DNA from: Propionivibrio soli
Lineage (GTDB): Bacteria > Pseudomonadota > Gammaproteobacteria > Burkholderiales > Rhodocyclaceae
Assembly (NCBI RefSeq): GCF_025770765.1
Contig: NZ_JANZKY010000001.1
Coordinates: 124,001-188,000, forward strand
Length of the DNA: 64,000 bases
Reading direction: 5' to 3'
The notes under the pieces were generated by a model. It made no database searches. It saw only the letters and a list, made by a program, of their open reading frames with translations, and was not told where the DNA came from. This document shows, in pieces, positions 14,243-41,898 of the stretch (its first letter is position 1; each line of letters opens with the position of its first letter). The position numbers and the translations under genes were made by a program.

Positions 14243-14848
14243 CTATTTCCGCCCGAGGCGGTAGAAGGCGAGGCTACCGTTAAGATTCGGGTCCTCGATC
14301 ACCGGCCGGCCGGATTCGTCGAACGCAAGTCGCTCGCGGATTTCGATGCCGAGCCGTGCGCACAACGCTTCAAAATCCGCGATGGTGAAGAAACGGACGT
14401 TCGGCGTGTCGTACCACTCGTACGGTAGGTCTTCCGACACCGGCATGTGCCCCTCGGCGATCGCCTCGCGATTGGTGCGGAAAGCAAAGTTGGGAAAGCT
14501 AACCACGGCCTCCTCGGCTACGCGCAGCATCTCGTTCAGGATACGTTCGGTGGCATGCATCGCCTGCAGCGCTTGAGAAATAACCACGTGGTTGAACGAG
14601 CGGTCTTCGAAACCGGAGAGGCCCCGTTCGATATCGATCTGGATCACGTCCACGCCATTTCGGATGCAACCGAGAACGCTTTGATGGTCGATTTCGACAC
14701 CGTACCCGACGACACCTTTGGTCTCGCGGAGATAGCGCAATAGGCGGCCATCGCCGCACCCGAGGTCAAGGACGCGCTCGCCCGGAGGAATCCAGTTCGC
14801 GATGACGGCAAAGTCGAACCGTTCGCGTTCTTTGGGCGTGAAGTTCAT
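14243..14848 (-). CDS. metW: Methionine biosynthesis protein MetW
   Basis: A 201-residue SAM-methyltransferase-fold protein. Motif [13 protein letters not shown] (about residues 26-37) and the family segments [24 protein letters not shown] and [23 protein letters not shown] identify MetW, which works with MetX in homoserine acylation. Its ATG overlaps the metX stop by 4 bases, the usual metXW arrangement in beta- and gammaproteobacteria. Expression should follow the SAM-II riboswitch upstream of metX. Confidence 0.95.
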
Positions 14849-15972
14849 ATCGAAATGTTCTCCAGGTACGCGCGCAGCACGGCATGGTAATGCGCGTCGT
14901 CAAGCAGGAAGGAATCGTGACCGGCATCGCAATCGATTTCTGCGTAGGCGACGTGGCGCCGATTGTGCAGGAGGGCAAAAACGATTTCGCGCGAACGCGC
15001 TGGCGAAAAACGCCAGTCCGTCGTGAAGCTGACAACCAGGAAGTTTGCCGTCGCACGCTCCAGTGCGGCGGGCAGATCACCGTCGTATTTGTAGGCGGGA
15101 TCGAAATAGTCGAGCGCCTTGGTGGTAATCAGGTAGGTGTTGGCGTCGAAGAAGCCGGCAAACTTGTCGCCCTGATAACGCAAGTACGATTCGACCTCGA
15201 AGTCCACGTCGTAACTGAACTTGTGCTCCCCGTGACGCAATTGGCGTCCGAACTTTTCGCCCATCTGACTATCCGACAGATAGGTAATATGCCCGATCAT
15301 GCGCGCCAAACGCAGACCCTTGGCCGGGACGACCCCATGTTCCGCATAGTGACCACCGTGAAAGTCGGGGTCCGAGAGGATCGCCTGCCGGGCGACCTCG
15401 TTGAAGGCGATGTTCTGCGCTGAGAGCTTGGGCGCTGAAGCGATCACCAGCGCATGCCGGATACGTTCCGGAAACTGCAACGACCATTCGAGCGCCTGCA
15501 TGCCGCCCAGGCTGCCGCCCATGACCGCGGCCCAAGTGTCGATGCCGAGGTGATCCGCGAGACGCGCCTGAGCCGCGACCCAGTCCTCGACGGTGACCAT
15601 CGGGAAATCGGCACCGTAACGCTTGCCGGTGTCGGGGTTGATCGATATCGGGCCAGTCGAGCCGTAGCATCCGCCCAGATTGTTCACACCGACGACGAAG
15701 AAGCGGTTCGTGTCGAGCGGCTTGCCCGGCCCGACCAGGTTGTCCCACCAACCGACATTCTTTGGATTGTCGGCATAGGTTCCAGCCACGTGATGGCCGC
15801 CGGACAGCGCGTGGCAAATGAGCACCGCATTCGAACGAGCGGCATTCAGCGTACCGTACGTTTCGTAGACGAGTTCGAAGCTTGGGAGCGACGCGCCGCT
15901 CCTCAGCGCGATCGGCTCATTGAAGCGGACGCGTTGCGGAACAACGACACCGACAGAATTTTCGAGAGGCAT
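14845..15972 (-). CDS. metX: Homoserine O-acyltransferase MetX
   Basis: A 375-residue alpha/beta hydrolase that activates homoserine for methionine synthesis. The nucleophile elbow [13 protein letters not shown] (about residue 140), the oxyanion-region [22 protein letters not shown], and the terminal Asp/His pair in [11 protein letters not shown] are visible. MetX enzymes next to metW may use succinyl-CoA rather than acetyl-CoA; the sequence alone does not settle this. The start at 15972 ([10 protein letters not shown]) follows the terminator and riboswitch on the same strand; an upstream start at 16017 would lie within the terminator and is unlikely. Confidence 0.95.
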
Positions 15973-15988
15973 ACACCGTCGTATCTTC

Positions 15989-16029
15989 AAAAAAACAAAC
16001 CCAGTCGGCCATAACAAAGCGGACTGGGT
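15989..16029 (-). terminator. Intrinsic terminator of the metX riboswitch
   Basis: On the minus strand an 8-bp stem ACCCAGTC / GACTGGGT (16029-16022 with 16006-15999) closes a 15-base loop and is followed by a T-rich tail (15998-15989). Its loop contains CCGCTTT (16022-16016), complementary to AAAGCGG in the aptamer 3' end (16041-16035), so an antiterminator pairing is possible. It lies between aptamer and start codon of metX. Confidence 0.85.
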
Positions 16030-37577: not shown

Positions 37578-38216
37578 ATGAAAACCAACGCTGAAACGGT
37601 CCACATTTCGGGACCGGCGGGCCCTATCGAGACCATTATCGAAAATCCGGGCAATCCAGTCGGTATCGCGCTGGTGTGCCATCCCCACCCTCTTTTCGGC
37701 GGGTCCAACACCAACAAGGTGACGCAGACGGTGGCCCGCGCGCTTGTCCGGTTAAACTACGTGGCTCTGCGACCGAATTTCCGCGGCGTGGGCCAGAGCG
37801 CCGGAAGCCACGACGATGGCCGCGGCGAATGCGACGACATGCTGGCTGTGCTCGCCGATGCCCGTCATCGCTTCGGCGACCTTCCGGTGGCACTCGGCGG
37901 CTTCTCTTTCGGCGCCTATGTGCAAACCCACGTTGCCAAAGGGCTGGCCGATGAAGGGCGCGCCGTAGAGCGCATGGTCCTCGTGGGGACCGCCGCTGGC
38001 GACGTCAAAGGAATTCGCCGTTATACGACCGGCACGGTCGGCGAAGACACCATCGTGATCCACGGCGGCGCGGACGAAACCGTTCCGCTCGCCAACGTGC
38101 TCGCTTGGGCGGAGCCGTTCGATCTACCGGTCATCGTGATTCCTGGCGCGGACCATTTTTTCCATAGACGGCTGCATATCATTAACGACATCGTGACACG
38201 CGCATGGCGACCATAA
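37578..38216 (+). CDS. Alpha/beta hydrolase
   Basis: A 212-residue hydrolase-fold protein. LVCHPHPLFGGS near residue 36 and RPNFRGVGQSAG near 66 form the oxyanion-side loops, GGFSFGAYV (about 108-116) is the nucleophile elbow, and GADHFFHRRL near the C-terminus holds the catalytic histidine. Members of this small CocE/NonD-like group are esterases or thioesterases of unknown substrate. It follows the ferredoxin by 15 bases and overlaps the ABC ATPase gene by 13. Confidence 0.88.
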   Translation: MKTNAETVHISGPAGPIETIIENPGNPVGIALVCHPHPLFGGSNTNKVTQTVARALVRLNYVALRPNFRGVGQSAGSHDDGRGECDDMLAVLADARHRFGDLPVALGGFSFGAYVQTHVAKGLADEGRAVERMVLVGTAAGDVKGIRRYTTGTVGEDTIVIHGGADETVPLANVLAWAEPFDLPVIVIPGADHFFHRRLHIINDIVTRAWRP

Positions 38217-39136
38217 ACGACAAGAACAGCCATGCCCTCGACGTATCGGGGTTGCGCAAAAGCTACGACGGCAACGAAGTCGTCGCCGGCATCAGCTTCA
38301 CCGCGACCCCGGGTACCTGCTTCGGGCTACTCGGCCCCAACGGCGCCGGCAAGACAACCACGCTGCGTTGCTGCCTCGGCCTGACCGCTCCGGACGCAGG
38401 CGACATCCGGCTAGGCGGTTTCGATGTACCTGAGGCGGCGGAAGAGGCACGTCGGCGCGTCGGCGTTGTCCCGCAGTTCGACAACCTCGACCCCGATTTC
38501 ACCGTAACGGAAAATCTGGTCGTGTACGGCCGCTACTTCGGCTTGGCTGATACCGAGATTCGTTCCCGAGTCGGCGATCTGCTCGATTTCGCTGGACTCA
38601 AAGGCAAGGAAAAGGCACGTATCCAGACACTCTCCGGTGGTATGAAACGCCGCCTGACGCTCGCCCGAGCGCTGGTTAACAATCCCGACATTGTCTTCCT
38701 CGACGAGCCGACGACTGGTCTTGATCCGCAGGCCCGTCACTTGATTTGGGATCGCCTTAAGCAACTCACCGCACGCGGTAAGACACTGATCCTCACGACC
38801 CATTTCATGGACGAGGCCGAACGCCTATGCGACCGTCTGGCAATTCTCGACCATGGGCGGCTCATTACCGAAGGCGCACCACGCGATCTGATCGCCGCGC
38901 ATATCGAACCGCAAGTCGTTGAGGTCTTCGGTGATGACGTCGCCGCGTGGGCGCGCCACCATCAAGGGCTCGGCGAGCGGCTGGAGGTGGCCGGAGATAC
39001 TGCCTTCTTCTATTGCCGCGACAGCGACCCGCTGCTCCACGCCCTCGCCGGCGAAACCGGGCTGCGCTACATGCACCGGGCGGCGACGTTGGAAGACGTG
39101 TTCATCAAACTCACAGGACGGGAGTTGCGCGACTGA
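38204..39136 (+). CDS. ABC transporter ATP-binding protein, NodI/CcmA-like
   Basis: A 310-residue ABC ATPase with Walker A GPNGAGKTT (about residues 46-54), signature LSGGMKRRLTLA (about 143-154), Walker B VFLDEPTTGLDPQ and the H-loop LTTHFMDEAE. Its C-terminal domain (about 230-310) resembles NodI-type exporters. With the downstream permease it should form an ABC-2 type export pump; the substrate is not evident and no nodulation gene is nearby. Confidence 0.93.
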   Translation: MATINDKNSHALDVSGLRKSYDGNEVVAGISFTATPGTCFGLLGPNGAGKTTTLRCCLGLTAPDAGDIRLGGFDVPEAAEEARRRVGVVPQFDNLDPDFTVTENLVVYGRYFGLADTEIRSRVGDLLDFAGLKGKEKARIQTLSGGMKRRLTLARALVNNPDIVFLDEPTTGLDPQARHLIWDRLKQLTARGKTLILTTHFMDEAERLCDRLAILDHGRLITEGAPRDLIAAHIEPQVVEVFGDDVAAWARHHQGLGERLEVAGDTAFFYCRDSDPLLHALAGETGLRYMHRAATLEDVFIKLTGRELRD

Positions 39137-39164
39137 ACGCGCCGTCCGACAACGAGCCATCGAA

Positions 39165-39956
39165 ATGATCAGAACGACCGCGTTATTTCAACTGCCCCGC
39201 CCGGGGCTGAATTGGTTCCCGGTGTGGCGCCGCAACTTTCTCGTGTGGCGCAAGCTGGCGATTCCCTCGATCCTCGGTAACCTTGCCGATCCACTGATCT
39301 ACATGTTGGGTCTTGGATACGGGCTCGGCAACATGTTGCCGGAAGTGAGCGGCGTCAAGTACGTCAGTTTTCTCTCTGCCGGCACGGTGGTCGCCAGTAC
39401 GATGAACGCGGCGACATTTGAGGCGCTCTACTCATCGTTTTCCCGCATGCACGTGCAAAAAACGTGGGACGCCATCCTGAACACGCCGTTGTCGCTCGAC
39501 CACGTCCTCGCAGGCGAACTCGTCTGGGCAGCGAGCAAGAGCCTGCTCTCGGGGCTCGCCATCCTCGTCGTCATCGGGGCGCTTGGACTCACGCAATCTC
39601 CATTGGCCCTGTGGGCGATCCCAGTAATCTTCCTGACCGGACTCACATTCGCAGCGATGGGCTTGATCGTATGTTCGCTGGCGCCCTCCTACGATTTCTT
39701 CATGTACTACTTCACCTTGTTCATCACGCCAATGCTGCTCGTATCGGGGATATTCTTCCCGGCGGACCAGTTGCCGGCCGCGGTGCATGCTGTCGCCAGT
39801 TGGCTGCCGCTCGCTCATGCCGTGCAACTCGCACGGCCCTTGTTGCTCGGTGAAGTCCCGAGCAACATCTTCGGCCATGTAGGCGCGCTGACGCTGATTG
39901 CGCTGGTCGCCTTTTATGTTGCATCTGTTCTCACGCGCAAGCGGCTGCTTAAATAA
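39165..39956 (+). CDS. ABC-2 type transporter permease, NodJ-like
   Basis: A 263-residue permease with about six membrane helices. The N-terminal block NWFPVWRRNFLVWRKLAIPSI and the GLGYGLGNMLPEV region are close to NodJ, and SGIFFPADQLPAAVHAVASWLPLAHAV is the typical ABC-2 C-terminal block. It starts 28 bases after the ATPase gene and is the last gene before the cobalamin riboswitch. Confidence 0.92.
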   Translation: MIRTTALFQLPRPGLNWFPVWRRNFLVWRKLAIPSILGNLADPLIYMLGLGYGLGNMLPEVSGVKYVSFLSAGTVVASTMNAATFEALYSSFSRMHVQKTWDAILNTPLSLDHVLAGELVWAASKSLLSGLAILVVIGALGLTQSPLALWAIPVIFLTGLTFAAMGLIVCSLAPSYDFFMYYFTLFITPMLLVSGIFFPADQLPAAVHAVASWLPLAHAVQLARPLLLGEVPSNIFGHVGALTLIALVAFYVASVLTRKRLLK

Positions 39957-40008: not shown

Positions 40009-40037
40009 TTGACCGGTGTAGGTGCAAAGAGTGAAAA
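40009..40037 (+). promoter_or_regulatory. Possible promoter of the cobalamin-riboswitch transcript
   Basis: TTGACC (40009-40014) matches the -35 consensus at 5/6. It is followed after 17 bases by TGAAAA (40032-40037), a poor -10 (3/6). Transcription would begin near 40044, just before the aptamer. Confidence 0.3.
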
Positions 40038-40050
40038 TGCCGGCACCGTT

Positions 40051-40211
40051 CGGTTCGACGAAACGGAACACGGTGTGAATCCGTGGCGGGCCCGCCGCTG
40101 TATCCGGGGACGAACGCTGCAAGGTCGAGAGACCAGCCACTGACGGGGCCTACCCCGCCGGGAAGGTGTAGCGATTCGGATGATCCGGTAGCCAGAAGAC
40201 GTGTCGAACCG
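40051..40211 (+). promoter_or_regulatory. Cobalamin (B12) riboswitch
   Basis: The aptamer opens with GGTTCGAC (40052-40059) pairing with GTCGAACC (40203-40210) as P1. Conserved core elements follow in order: AAACGGAACACGGTGTGAATCCG, read in pieces at 40060-40083; GGCGGGCCCGCCGCTGT (40086-40102), the B12-box strand; GCCACTG (40136-40142); CGGGAAGG (40159-40166); and GTAGCCAGAAGACGTG (40188-40203). This matches the cobalamin class (Rfam RF00174). A terminator and the 47-codon peptide gene lie directly downstream, so adenosylcobalamin probably represses the peptide operon. Confidence 0.92.
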
Positions 40212-40215
40212 GTTC

Positions 40216-40285
40216 GGAGTCCAGGCAAGGGCTCCGGCAAAGCGCATGCAGTCGCGTGCACTTTGCCGGAGCCCTTTTTGTTTTT
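40216..40285 (+). terminator. Terminator and antiterminator of the cobalamin riboswitch
   Basis: GGGCTCCGGCAAAG (40229-40242) and CTTTGCCGGAGCCC (40261-40274) form a perfect 14-bp stem followed by TTTTTGTTTTTG. GGAGTCC (40216-40222) can instead pair with the first seven bases of the stem, GGGCTCC (40229-40235), across a 6-base loop, giving a plausible antiterminator. This is a standard transcription-attenuation platform. Confidence 0.9.
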
Positions 40286-40309
40286 GTTGATCTCATCGAG
40301 GAGCAGATT

Positions 40310-40453
40310 ATGTCGAACGCCATTCAAACCCCCGCCAACGCTCAGCCGGCAAAGAAAGAGTCCTCCCCCATCATCGCGGTGCGCAAAAGTTGCAATCCGG
40401 ACGGAATCGGTCTTTCGCACTATGTGTTGATGGACCGGAAAGCGGCCAAGTAA
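40310..40453 (+). CDS. cbpA: 47-residue radical-SAM-modified peptide precursor (CbpA-like)
   Basis: A 47-residue peptide, start ATG after GAGGAG with 6-base spacing. Residues 1-20 are polar and Ala/Pro/Lys rich and would act as leader; the distinctive part is RKSCNPDGIGLSHYVLMD (residues 25-42) with a single cysteine, Cys28. Its stop codon abuts the ATG of a radical SAM/SPASM enzyme, the usual arrangement of a ribosomally made peptide and its maturase. From memory, NCBI models a precursor CbpA with a maturase CbpB behind cobalamin riboswitches; I could not check this. The product and its function are unknown. No protease or exporter is directly linked, though an ABC exporter pair lies upstream of the riboswitch. 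Confidence 0.8.
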   Translation: MSNAIQTPANAQPAKKESSPIIAVRKSCNPDGIGLSHYVLMDRKAAK

Positions 40454-41830
40454 ATGTCGGTAGCCGAACAAAGCCGGGCCGGGGTCGCTGGCCCGCTGAT
40501 TCCGGTCGACATCGGGCATGACAGATACACAGCGCTTACCGACCCGAATACGGCCTTCTGGGCACTGGTGGACAAGAAACGCGTTGGAGAATCAGAGGCC
40601 CATGGTTCGCTGCTCGCCAGCTTCCATGAAAACGCGGCCGCCTTCGCACGCGAAATGCACGCCTTGCGCTTCGAGCTCACGCCCTCGGGCGTGTATCTGA
40701 ATCCGACCGAGCGTTGCAACCTCAATTGCACGTACTGTTATCTGCCGGGCCAGCAACGTAGCGAAGGTAGGCACATGCCGGTCGACACGCTACTCGTCTC
40801 GCTGGAGAAGCTGCGCACCTATTTCCGATCCGTAATGCCAGAAGGCCGCAAGCCGCGCGCCATTTTCCACGGGGCCGAGCCCTTGATGAACAAGGCAGCG
40901 GTCTTCGAGGCGATCCGCGCCTTTGGCGATCACTTCGCCTTCGGCATCCAGACCAACGGGACGCTGCTCGATGAAGAGGCGATGAGTTTCCTCACGTCGC
41001 GCAACGTCAGCATCGGCCTGTCGCTTGATGGGCCGATGCCGTCGATTACTGACGCGACACGGCTTACCTGGGGTGGCAAGAGCGTGCACGACAAGGTGCT
41101 CACAGCCATGGACAAGCTGCGTGGGTACGGCTCGTGGAGCGTCATCACGACGTGCACCACGGAGAACCTGCCGCATCTCACCCGCATGGTGGAGCTCTTC
41201 CACGCACGTGAAGTGCCGACGTGCATGCTCAACACCTTGCGTTGCACTCTGCCCGGAGCTCGCGGCGTCAAGCCAGCGGATGCCGATATGGCGCAGTCGT
41301 TTTTCGGGGCGCTCGACCGCAGCCACGCGCTATTCAAGGAGACGGGCCGCAAGCTGGTGGTCGCCAACTTCGCCAACATCCTGATCGCGATCCTAGCCCC
41401 GACAGCACGCCGGCTGATGTGCGACATCTCGCCTTGCGGCGGCGGACGGGCTTTCTTCGCTTTGGCCGCCGACGGCAGTCTCTATCCCTGCAGCGAATTC
41501 ATCGGCGTGCCACACTTTAACGGCGGCAATCTGTTCGACGCCGGAGGCGTGGAGGCGGCGCTCGCCTCGGAAGCCTTCAGGACCGTCACCGAGCGCGATG
41601 TCGATACGTTTCAACCGTGCAGCGACTGCGCGATCCGGCATTTCTGCGGCTCGCCCTGCCCAGCCGAAGCGCACGAGATGAACGGTGGCATGCAGCAAAT
41701 CGGCGCCTTCTGCGAATTCTATAAGGAGCAGGTCAACTACGCGTTGCGGTTGATTGCCGACGGCAAGGCCGACGATTATTTATGGGACGGATGGGACGCC
41801 GGGACGGAAACGACGTTTCAGGTGCAGTAA
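40454..41830 (+). CDS. cbpB: Peptide-modifying radical SAM/SPASM enzyme (CbpB-like)
   Basis: A 458-residue enzyme. The radical SAM CX3CX2C motif is CNLNCTYC (Cys88, Cys92, Cys95), which binds the [4Fe-4S] cluster and SAM. The barrel continues with FHGAEPLM and SIGLSLDGP. The C-terminal SPASM-type region has cysteines in CDISPC (323-328), SLYPCSEF, FQPCSDC, HFCGSPCP and AFCEFYKEQ, enough for two auxiliary clusters. An N-terminal extension of about 85 residues may hold the leader-binding part. It starts directly at the cbpA stop, so it is translationally coupled, and it ends before a strong bidirectional terminator. It would install a carbon-centred modification on CbpA; which one is unknown. 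Confidence 0.88.
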   Translation: MSVAEQSRAGVAGPLIPVDIGHDRYTALTDPNTAFWALVDKKRVGESEAHGSLLASFHENAAAFAREMHALRFELTPSGVYLNPTERCNLNCTYCYLPGQQRSEGRHMPVDTLLVSLEKLRTYFRSVMPEGRKPRAIFHGAEPLMNKAAVFEAIRAFGDHFAFGIQTNGTLLDEEAMSFLTSRNVSIGLSLDGPMPSITDATRLTWGGKSVHDKVLTAMDKLRGYGSWSVITTCTTENLPHLTRMVELFHAREVPTCMLNTLRCTLPGARGVKPADADMAQSFFGALDRSHALFKETGRKLVVANFANILIAILAPTARRLMCDISPCGGGRAFFALAADGSLYPCSEFIGVPHFNGGNLFDAGGVEAALASEAFRTVTERDVDTFQPCSDCAIRHFCGSPCPAEAHEMNGGMQQIGAFCEFYKEQVNYALRLIADGKADDYLWDGWDAGTETTFQVQ

Positions 41831-41863: not shown

Positions 41864-41898
41864 AAAAAGGGGCGGATAAACCGCCCCTTTTTTTTTTT
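41864..41898. terminator. Bidirectional terminator between cbpB and the oxidoreductase operon
   Basis: A 7-bp GC stem GGGGCGG / CCGCCCC (41869-41875 with 41881-41887), loop ATAAA, preceded by AAAAA and followed by a run of 11 T. It closes the cbpA-cbpB transcript and, read from the other side, the minus-strand operon ending at 41914. Confidence 0.88.

Follow-up and report, generated by a model that had tools for sequence, protein, structure and literature searches.

Why should a bacterium place a 47-residue peptide and a radical S-adenosylmethionine (SAM) enzyme under the control of vitamin B12? The question is raised by a locus within a 64,000-nucleotide stretch of the Propionivibrio soli genome (contig NZ_JANZKY010000001.1, positions 124,001 to 188,000; hereafter the window), in which a cobalamin riboswitch precedes the contiguous genes cbpA and cbpB (cbpAB). 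The pair belongs to a previously named, uncharacterised family, and we propose, at slightly below even odds (about 45%), that it makes a conserved, probably intracellular ribosomally synthesised and post-translationally modified peptide (RiPP) of the B12-deficiency response, which would help the cell to obtain, bind or allocate scarce corrinoid. As judged from sequence comparison, the proposal starts from a riboswitch with terminator, a peptide gene under selection, a full SPASM enzyme gene and the same layout recurring across several phyla.

The riboswitch and the cbpAB pair in the window

The riboswitch aptamer (40034..40222, + strand) matches the RF00174 covariance model over its full length (model positions 1-189 of 189) at 77.8 bits, far above the gathering score of 31.5 (E 1.9e-17), which places it in this family. 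It begins 17 bases before the start given in an earlier, sequence-only reading of this DNA, which had proposed a cobalamin riboswitch with terminator. The terminator is indeed present as an intrinsic terminator of the expression platform (40227..40285, +), formed by a hairpin at 40227-40276 and the T-rich run TTTTTGTTTTT; RNA folding assigns this hairpin -44 kcal/mol and a z score of -8.56, and 0 of 200 shuffles were as stable. With cobalamin bound, the riboswitch would be expected to shut off cbpAB.

The cbpA gene (40310..40453, +) encodes a 47-residue precursor of a modified peptide, as indicated by its TIGR04164 match and its conservation. Read directly from the sequence, its codons occupy 40310-40450 and its TAA stop 40451-40453, with GAGGAG immediately 5'. 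The cbpB gene (40454..41830 including the stop, +), identified by its TIGR04163 match, starts with an ATG at 40454, with 0 bases separating the two genes, and encodes a 458-residue radical SAM/SPASM enzyme. An intrinsic terminator (41864..41898, +) ends the two-gene unit, with a hairpin at 41864-41892 (-20.2 kcal/mol, z -4.86 by RNA folding) followed by a T run. Peptide, gapless enzyme gene and terminator had all been described by the sequence-only reading, and its account of a self-contained, RiPP-type pair led by a B12 riboswitch stands.

Both products exceed the equivalog cut-offs of their families: the peptide scores 56.1 bits against TIGR04164 (cobo_pep, cut-off 35) and the enzyme 712.8 bits against TIGR04163 (rSAM_cobopep, cut-off 375, profile positions 3-428 of 428). 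Together with a gene order and a core as in relatives, these matches make the window pair a member of the CbpA/CbpB family, which the sequence-only reading had already named as a database family. The 'cobo' in the NCBIfam label suggests, going by the name, that a curator had noticed the B12 link. We found no published account of the pair, its product or its function, in a search with limited coverage of subscription journals, so that an earlier mention is possible; passages of PMC9600662 have no bearing on the pair. New here are the consistency of the peptide-enzyme arrangement (96/96 and 10/10 loci), the invariant core, the riboswitch tallies, the count of nearby cobalamin genes, the tandem cores and the persistence of the pair in genomes without a cobI match.

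Conservation of the CbpA core and spread of the pair

We assembled three sets of loci. A pattern scan of a species-genome collection with CbpB returned 419 stretches at E values up to 1e-3, some of which may not be CbpB, and the best 80 form the 80-locus set. Among 150 genomes belonging to the same family as the window, 15 passed the cut-off of a profile search, the window's own included, and three of the four genomes searched in the window's genus carry cbpAB. Since the 80-locus set was selected for closeness to the window's enzyme, a second, profile-drawn sample covered 398 genomes of the phylum and gave 11 above the cut-off, again including the window. At least two carriers of the phylum sample (L156, L157; L and G numbers denote loci and genomes) are, by their peptides, genomes of the first set (L062, L071).

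A CbpA-type core lies directly 5' of CbpB on the same strand in 96/96 loci from the scan and the family search (L004-L099), which yield 88 distinct peptides: the window genome occurs twice, six other genomes are found in both sets with the same peptide, and a single assembly contributes two loci with one peptide. CbpA is likewise present in 10/10 non-window carriers of the phylum sample. The sequence-only reading had hung on an RF00174 score above threshold, which the aptamer far exceeds, and on conservation of the peptide in relatives that have the enzyme, which all 96 + 10 loci provide. At 15 control loci, situated at other, sub-threshold SPASM enzymes in genomes of the same family, no CbpA-type core was found (0/15).

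The conserved block, IIAVRKSCNPDGIGLSHYVLMDRK, lies close to the C-terminus. Within its core, R-x2-C-x3-G-x-G-L-S-H-Y, the residues R, C, G, G, L, S, H and Y are identical in 78/78 distinct cores, and a Leu two residues past the core Tyr is kept in 77/78; an Asp three residues past the core Cys occurs in 54/78 and is therefore not invariant. The motif used to search the loci, G-x-G-x-S-H plus an aromatic residue, preset some of these positions, so the Arg, the Cys, both Leu residues and the choice of Tyr count as independent conservation; the motif cost no locus. Each of 41 peptides in an alignment that contains the window's own matches TIGR04164 at E up to 1, which is an E limit and not a per-peptide cut-off. 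Across 87 distinct DNA versions of an 18-codon core, entropy averages 0.47 bits at the first codon position, 0.23 at the second and 1.19 at the third, and this pattern, with its free third positions, indicates that cbpA is a translated, strongly selected peptide gene rather than a chance open reading frame (ORF).

The N-terminal part of CbpA differs freely in length and sequence, the conserved block starting about 10 residues after the start in some relatives, and inspection by eye, with no signal-peptide program run, revealed no obvious signal peptide in these low-complexity-looking N-termini. Two tandem cores occur in one precursor in a Neptunomonas metagenome-assembled genome (MAG; L056), a Sedimenticola MAG (L057) and a Sedimenticola isolate (L058). 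Against solved structures, the CbpA profile gave four matches up to E 10, the best at E 0.058, which we judged to be due to chance. In a MAFFT alignment the CbpA core seemed to resemble part of the SPASM region in CbpB, but profile-profile comparison gave this a probability of 1.3% over five residues, and we rejected it as an alignment artefact.

By their record titles, carriers include Proteobacteria, Planctomycetota, Nitrospinales, Nitrospirae, Verrucomicrobia, Actinomycetes and others, the non-proteobacterial records being mostly MAGs with depositor-given names. A plasmid collection gave one CbpB match, and a phage collection, queried with CbpA and not with CbpB, gave none. On plasmid pHY1 of Methylovirgula sp. 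HY1 (L115:9807-14756), the pair is annotated cbpA/cbpB and lies about 2 kb from pqqA-pqqD-pqqE; this stretch holds no RF00174 match over threshold. Two copies of cbpAB were seen in one assembly of Azoarcus sp. Aa7 (L049 and L052, with identical peptides) and in an Azoarcus MAG (L040 and L041), one copy of the latter lying inside cobalamin genes and the other having its own riboswitch.

The CbpB enzyme and known peptide maturases

SPASM peptide maturases combine a CX3CX2C motif with a seven-cysteine SPASM pattern, and CbpB fits both. The CX3CX2C motif spans residues 88-95 (C88, C92, C95) and the SPASM cysteines are C328, C346, C389, C392, C398, C402 and C420, all of which are invariant in 63 CbpB sequences; the Pfam SPASM model scores 21.1 bits, slightly below its cut-off of 21.5. 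An AlphaFold2 (AF2) model built from the 63-sequence set reached a predicted local distance difference test score (pLDDT) of 88 and a predicted template modelling score of 0.88. Foldseek ranked CteB first for this model, followed by anSME, ChlB, TigE and SuiB, and a profile search against solved chains was likewise topped by CteB, anSME and ChlB.

The sequence-only reading had likened the layout to PqqA/PqqD-type systems. This comparison was not borne out in detail: PqqE comes at rank 44 of the Foldseek matches, and the locus is a two-gene unit closed by a terminator. A broader parallel is that in the pyrroloquinoline quinone (PQQ) and mycofactocin systems, too, a short peptide adjoins a SPASM enzyme and has a near-constant core suggestive of a single defined product. 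The window unit differs from both in being complete with two genes, without a PqqD-like or other maturation gene; the absence of a PqqD partner refers to the unit, as PqqD was not sought elsewhere in the genome. Overall, the earlier interpretation is partly supported: it holds for the B12-led RiPP-type pair and its family name, but not in detail for the PqqA/PqqD likeness.

CteB, the maturase of the SCIFF ranthipeptide CteA, shares with CbpB a radical SAM core and a SPASM domain and is its best match by fold and by profile, at 18-20% identity in the fold alignment. The systems differ in that CbpA has one conserved cysteine and not six, and in that cbpAB is controlled by a B12 riboswitch. Among NCBIfam models, the ranthipeptide maturase PapB (NF047865) ranks second for CbpB; with 119.3 bits, where 340 are required, CbpB lies outside the PapB family, and a further difference is that the Asp three residues past the Cys of CbpA is not invariant.

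In the whole-enzyme model, CbpB residues 16-73 form three strands followed by two helices, an order that may be the start of one like that of a PqqD-like RiPP recognition element (RRE). When CbpA and CbpB were modelled as a joined chain, IIAVRKS (CbpA 21-27) was predicted as a strand, with a mean pLDDT of 78 over residues 21-30. In the CteA/CteB system the leader of CteA is reported to bind at the RRE of CteB in the form of a β-strand (PMC8326336), and the strand in our joined-chain model resembles this arrangement. By this analogy, the model suggests that I-A-x-R-K may serve for recognition of CbpA, while modification may fall on C-x3-G-x-G-L-S-H-Y.

Cobalamin in the regulation, neighbourhood and genomes of carriers

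The control proposed for the window recurs among its relatives. An RF00174 match over threshold lies directly 5' of cbpAB in 70/80 loci, and a riboswitch is directly upstream in 15/15 loci of the family set and 10/10 of the phylum set (the sets overlap), which bears out the association once it is tallied as the sequence-only reading had envisaged. Among the loci without such a match, just ~210 and ~320 bases precede cbpB in L038 and L080; in L032 and L040 a riboswitch lies ~3 and ~4 kb farther upstream, ahead of cobalamin genes; and L033, L054 and L076 have no directly upstream riboswitch but are situated inside runs of cobalamin genes. The bare B12-box heptamer is uninformative because 10/15 control loci hold at least one copy on either strand, so the tallies are of covariance-model matches; the RF00174 model was not applied to the 15 control loci. 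Four B12 riboswitches were found in the window's genome; besides that of cbpAB, there is one ahead of cbiM, one ahead of bluB and one ahead of a btuB-like receptor gene. The cbiM and bluB products score above their cut-offs, and the receptor, translated from a cut stretch, has TonB-B12 as its best family (319 bits against 599.7). In the Planctomycetota loci L059, L064 and L065, cobalamin riboswitches stand back to back upstream of cbpA, one facing cbpAB and the second facing consecutive genes of cobC, cobU and cobS type together with a putative cobT.

Cobalamin genes also occur nearby. At least one lies within ~6 kb in 22/80 loci, a raw count without a background rate, based on profile matches or by-eye reading for CobB/CbiA, CobO, CobQ, CbiB, CbiC, CbiG, CbiX, CbiM, CobU, CobS and precorrin-methyltransferase types. 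These 22 loci represent about a dozen gene-order groups and come from records labelled as Proteobacteria, Planctomycetota and Verrucomicrobia. We further scanned the 129 nearest neighbours in 70/80 loci, excluding ten near-duplicates and genes shorter than 110 residues or beyond 4.5 kb. GATase_3 and CbiA domains were found in 6/129 neighbours, AAA_26, which overlaps the CobB matches, in 5/129, and UbiD, syntenic in Dechloromonas-like loci, in 5/129; each other Pfam family among the best 25 of 117 reached at most 3/129.

A crude census of the 80 loci revealed no recurring transporter, exporter, peptidase or dedicated receptor beside cbpAB, and a conserved third gene was rejected, as ORF clustering of the 80 loci and the neighbour scan gave no candidate. 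The census is rough because the ORF caller took the longest ORF and at times picked an antisense one, so that CbpB itself clustered in only 72/80 loci; one cluster, holding many riboswitch-adjacent antisense ORFs mixed by eye with sensor-type proteins, was set aside.

Several single observations concern genes near cbpAB. In the window, NodI/NodJ-like ABC transporter genes (38204-39956, +) lie immediately ahead of the riboswitch, with the NodJ family score above its cut-off and the NodI model scores below theirs. At L007:7458-9332 and L010:7456-9033 (-), a gene of the trimethylamine-corrinoid methyltransferase family lies ~80 bases past cbpB on the opposite strand (260.8 and 265.3 bits, under the equivalog cut-off of 525), and the L010 gene contains a PYLIS_3 match barely above threshold. 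Elsewhere in the window, a SAM_alpha riboswitch (RF00521, 16019-16097, -; 38.4 bits, cut-off 36) directly precedes metX-like (14845-16017) and metW-like (14243-14848) ORFs, named from reading their translations.

In whole genomes, cobI is found in 12/15 family carriers compared with 37/135 non-carriers (Fisher p 1e-4), in 8/10 carriers of the phylum set (6/6 near-complete ones), and, above its cut-off, in 34/48 carrier records picked from the 80 for spread, many of them incomplete drafts. CbiM is no such correlate (12/15 carriers vs 96/135 non-carriers, p 0.56). Three carriers that are 98-100% complete, G023, G053 and G129, have no cobI match, and two of them, G023 and G129, show no CbiM either. 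G023 and G053 hold B12-receptor- and BtuC-type genes behind a B12 riboswitch (best families, below curated cut-offs), and G129 holds BluB, CobB and CbiB, above cut-offs and adjoining cbpAB. Because of these three genomes, a role solely in corrin-ring making or cobalt insertion is unlikely.

A proposed role in the B12-deficiency response

We propose the following course of events. With ample cobalamin the riboswitch would end transcription, and as cobalamin falls CbpA and CbpB would be made. CbpB would hold CbpA through I-A-x-R-K, probably as an added β-strand, and apply radical SAM chemistry to the invariant C-x3-G-x-G-L-S-H-Y. In the likeliest product the single invariant cysteine would form one thioether ring, a bond suggested by that residue together with the CteB-like fold of the model; a carbon-carbon link at the His or Tyr may form instead. 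The mature peptide would be a single defined compound, unlike a varied antibiotic, would probably stay inside the cell and would act as a cofactor-type or helper-type RiPP for corrinoid. We favour such an internal corrinoid helper because of the constant core, the B12 riboswitch and the company of B12 genes, the carriers that seem to import B12 without making it and the lack of a recurring export or uptake gene. Since these carriers apparently depend on import alone, the product seems not to be tied to corrin-ring synthesis. More specifically, and more tentatively, CbpA may give rise to an intracellular peptide that binds or allocates corrinoid when B12 is scarce and is useful to B12 makers and importers alike, an assignment that we hold to be possible if somewhat doubtful; to our knowledge no ribosomal peptide has such a role, and our literature search showed none.

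Several observations weigh against this proposal. Three of the 80 loci (L012, L077, L084) have neither a riboswitch nor cobalamin genes in the stretches examined, no neighbour of cbpAB has a known part in processing or using the product, and our sequence and model analyses point directly neither to the bond formed nor to the target of the product. The joined-chain model has a pLDDT below 50 from CbpA Gly32 onward, GLSHY included, and docking of GLSHY in the active site is outside what this model supports. The carrier genome counts, moreover, ignore shared ancestry. That all family carriers have MetH (15/15) and none has MetE (0/15) fits the proposal, but against a reference of 47 non-carrier genomes (≥99% complete, ≤50 contigs) the absence of MetE is not significant (9/47 non-carriers, p 0.10) and MetH is just as common (46/47).

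The sequence-only reading had offered a metallophore, a cofactor substitute or a redox peptide as functions, all of them guesses. In the form considered here, a secreted metallophore would bind cobalt or corrinoid and be re-imported through TonB receptors under B12 or cobalt shortage. The B12 riboswitch ahead of cbpAB would suit this role, as would the NodI/NodJ-like exporter genes of the window, TonB receptor genes that share a cluster with the pair in L017, L033 and L054, and CbiM cobalt-transporter genes within ~3 kb in L032, L033, L040, L054 and L057. Yet no exporter, peptidase or dedicated receptor recurs in the rough census, HlyD-type membrane-fusion proteins making up only 3/129 neighbours; a NodJ-like gene is found in 1/80 other loci (L029), and an ORF is antisense to the NodI-like gene in three (L021, L029, L053). 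The N-termini show no obvious signal peptide by eye, and a cobalt-only carrier would be of little use to G023 and G129, which show neither CbiM nor cobI. Retention of the pair without cobI or CbiM, together with the lack of a recurring transporter, exporter or peptidase, counts against a metallophore serving only B12 synthesis, and we consider a secreted metallophore unlikely.

Less probable still is a helper of cobalamin synthesis, acting for example in cobalt insertion or at a corrin-ring step. It would explain the enrichment of cobI among carriers and the position of cbpAB inside the cobalamin runs of L032, L033, L040 and L054, between a precorrin-methyltransferase-type gene and CbiX, but not its retention in G023, G053 and G129 without a cobI match, two of which (G023, G129) also lack CbiM. 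We rate equally low the idea that the peptide yields a B12-independent redox or cofactor molecule replacing cobalamin in some reaction: expression is expected only at low B12 and the core is as constant as in cofactor-type RiPPs, but no partner enzyme was seen to recur beside cbpAB, and carriers retain MetH, show no MetE and in 12/15 cases have cobI. A bacteriocin or signalling peptide, to which the RiPP-type layout and the adjoining ABC exporter gene pair of the window might point, is very improbable given a core that is constant among distant records and a two-gene unit without an immunity or export gene. That CbpA is a mere leader ORF timing cbpB translation, as the contiguity of the two genes might allow, is hardly credible in view of its amino-acid-level conservation with free third positions, its tandem cores and its curated peptide family.

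Should the product of cbpAB serve the B12 economy of the cell, a ribosomal peptide would join synthesis, cobalt uptake, corrinoid uptake and remodelling among the functions known around B12, and it could explain how bacteria apportion scarce cobalamin. With so constant a core, a single structure, once solved, should apply to all ~100 loci found here. For a family hitherto named only in databases, the persistence of the pair in carriers that apparently only import B12 narrows where its function is to be sought.

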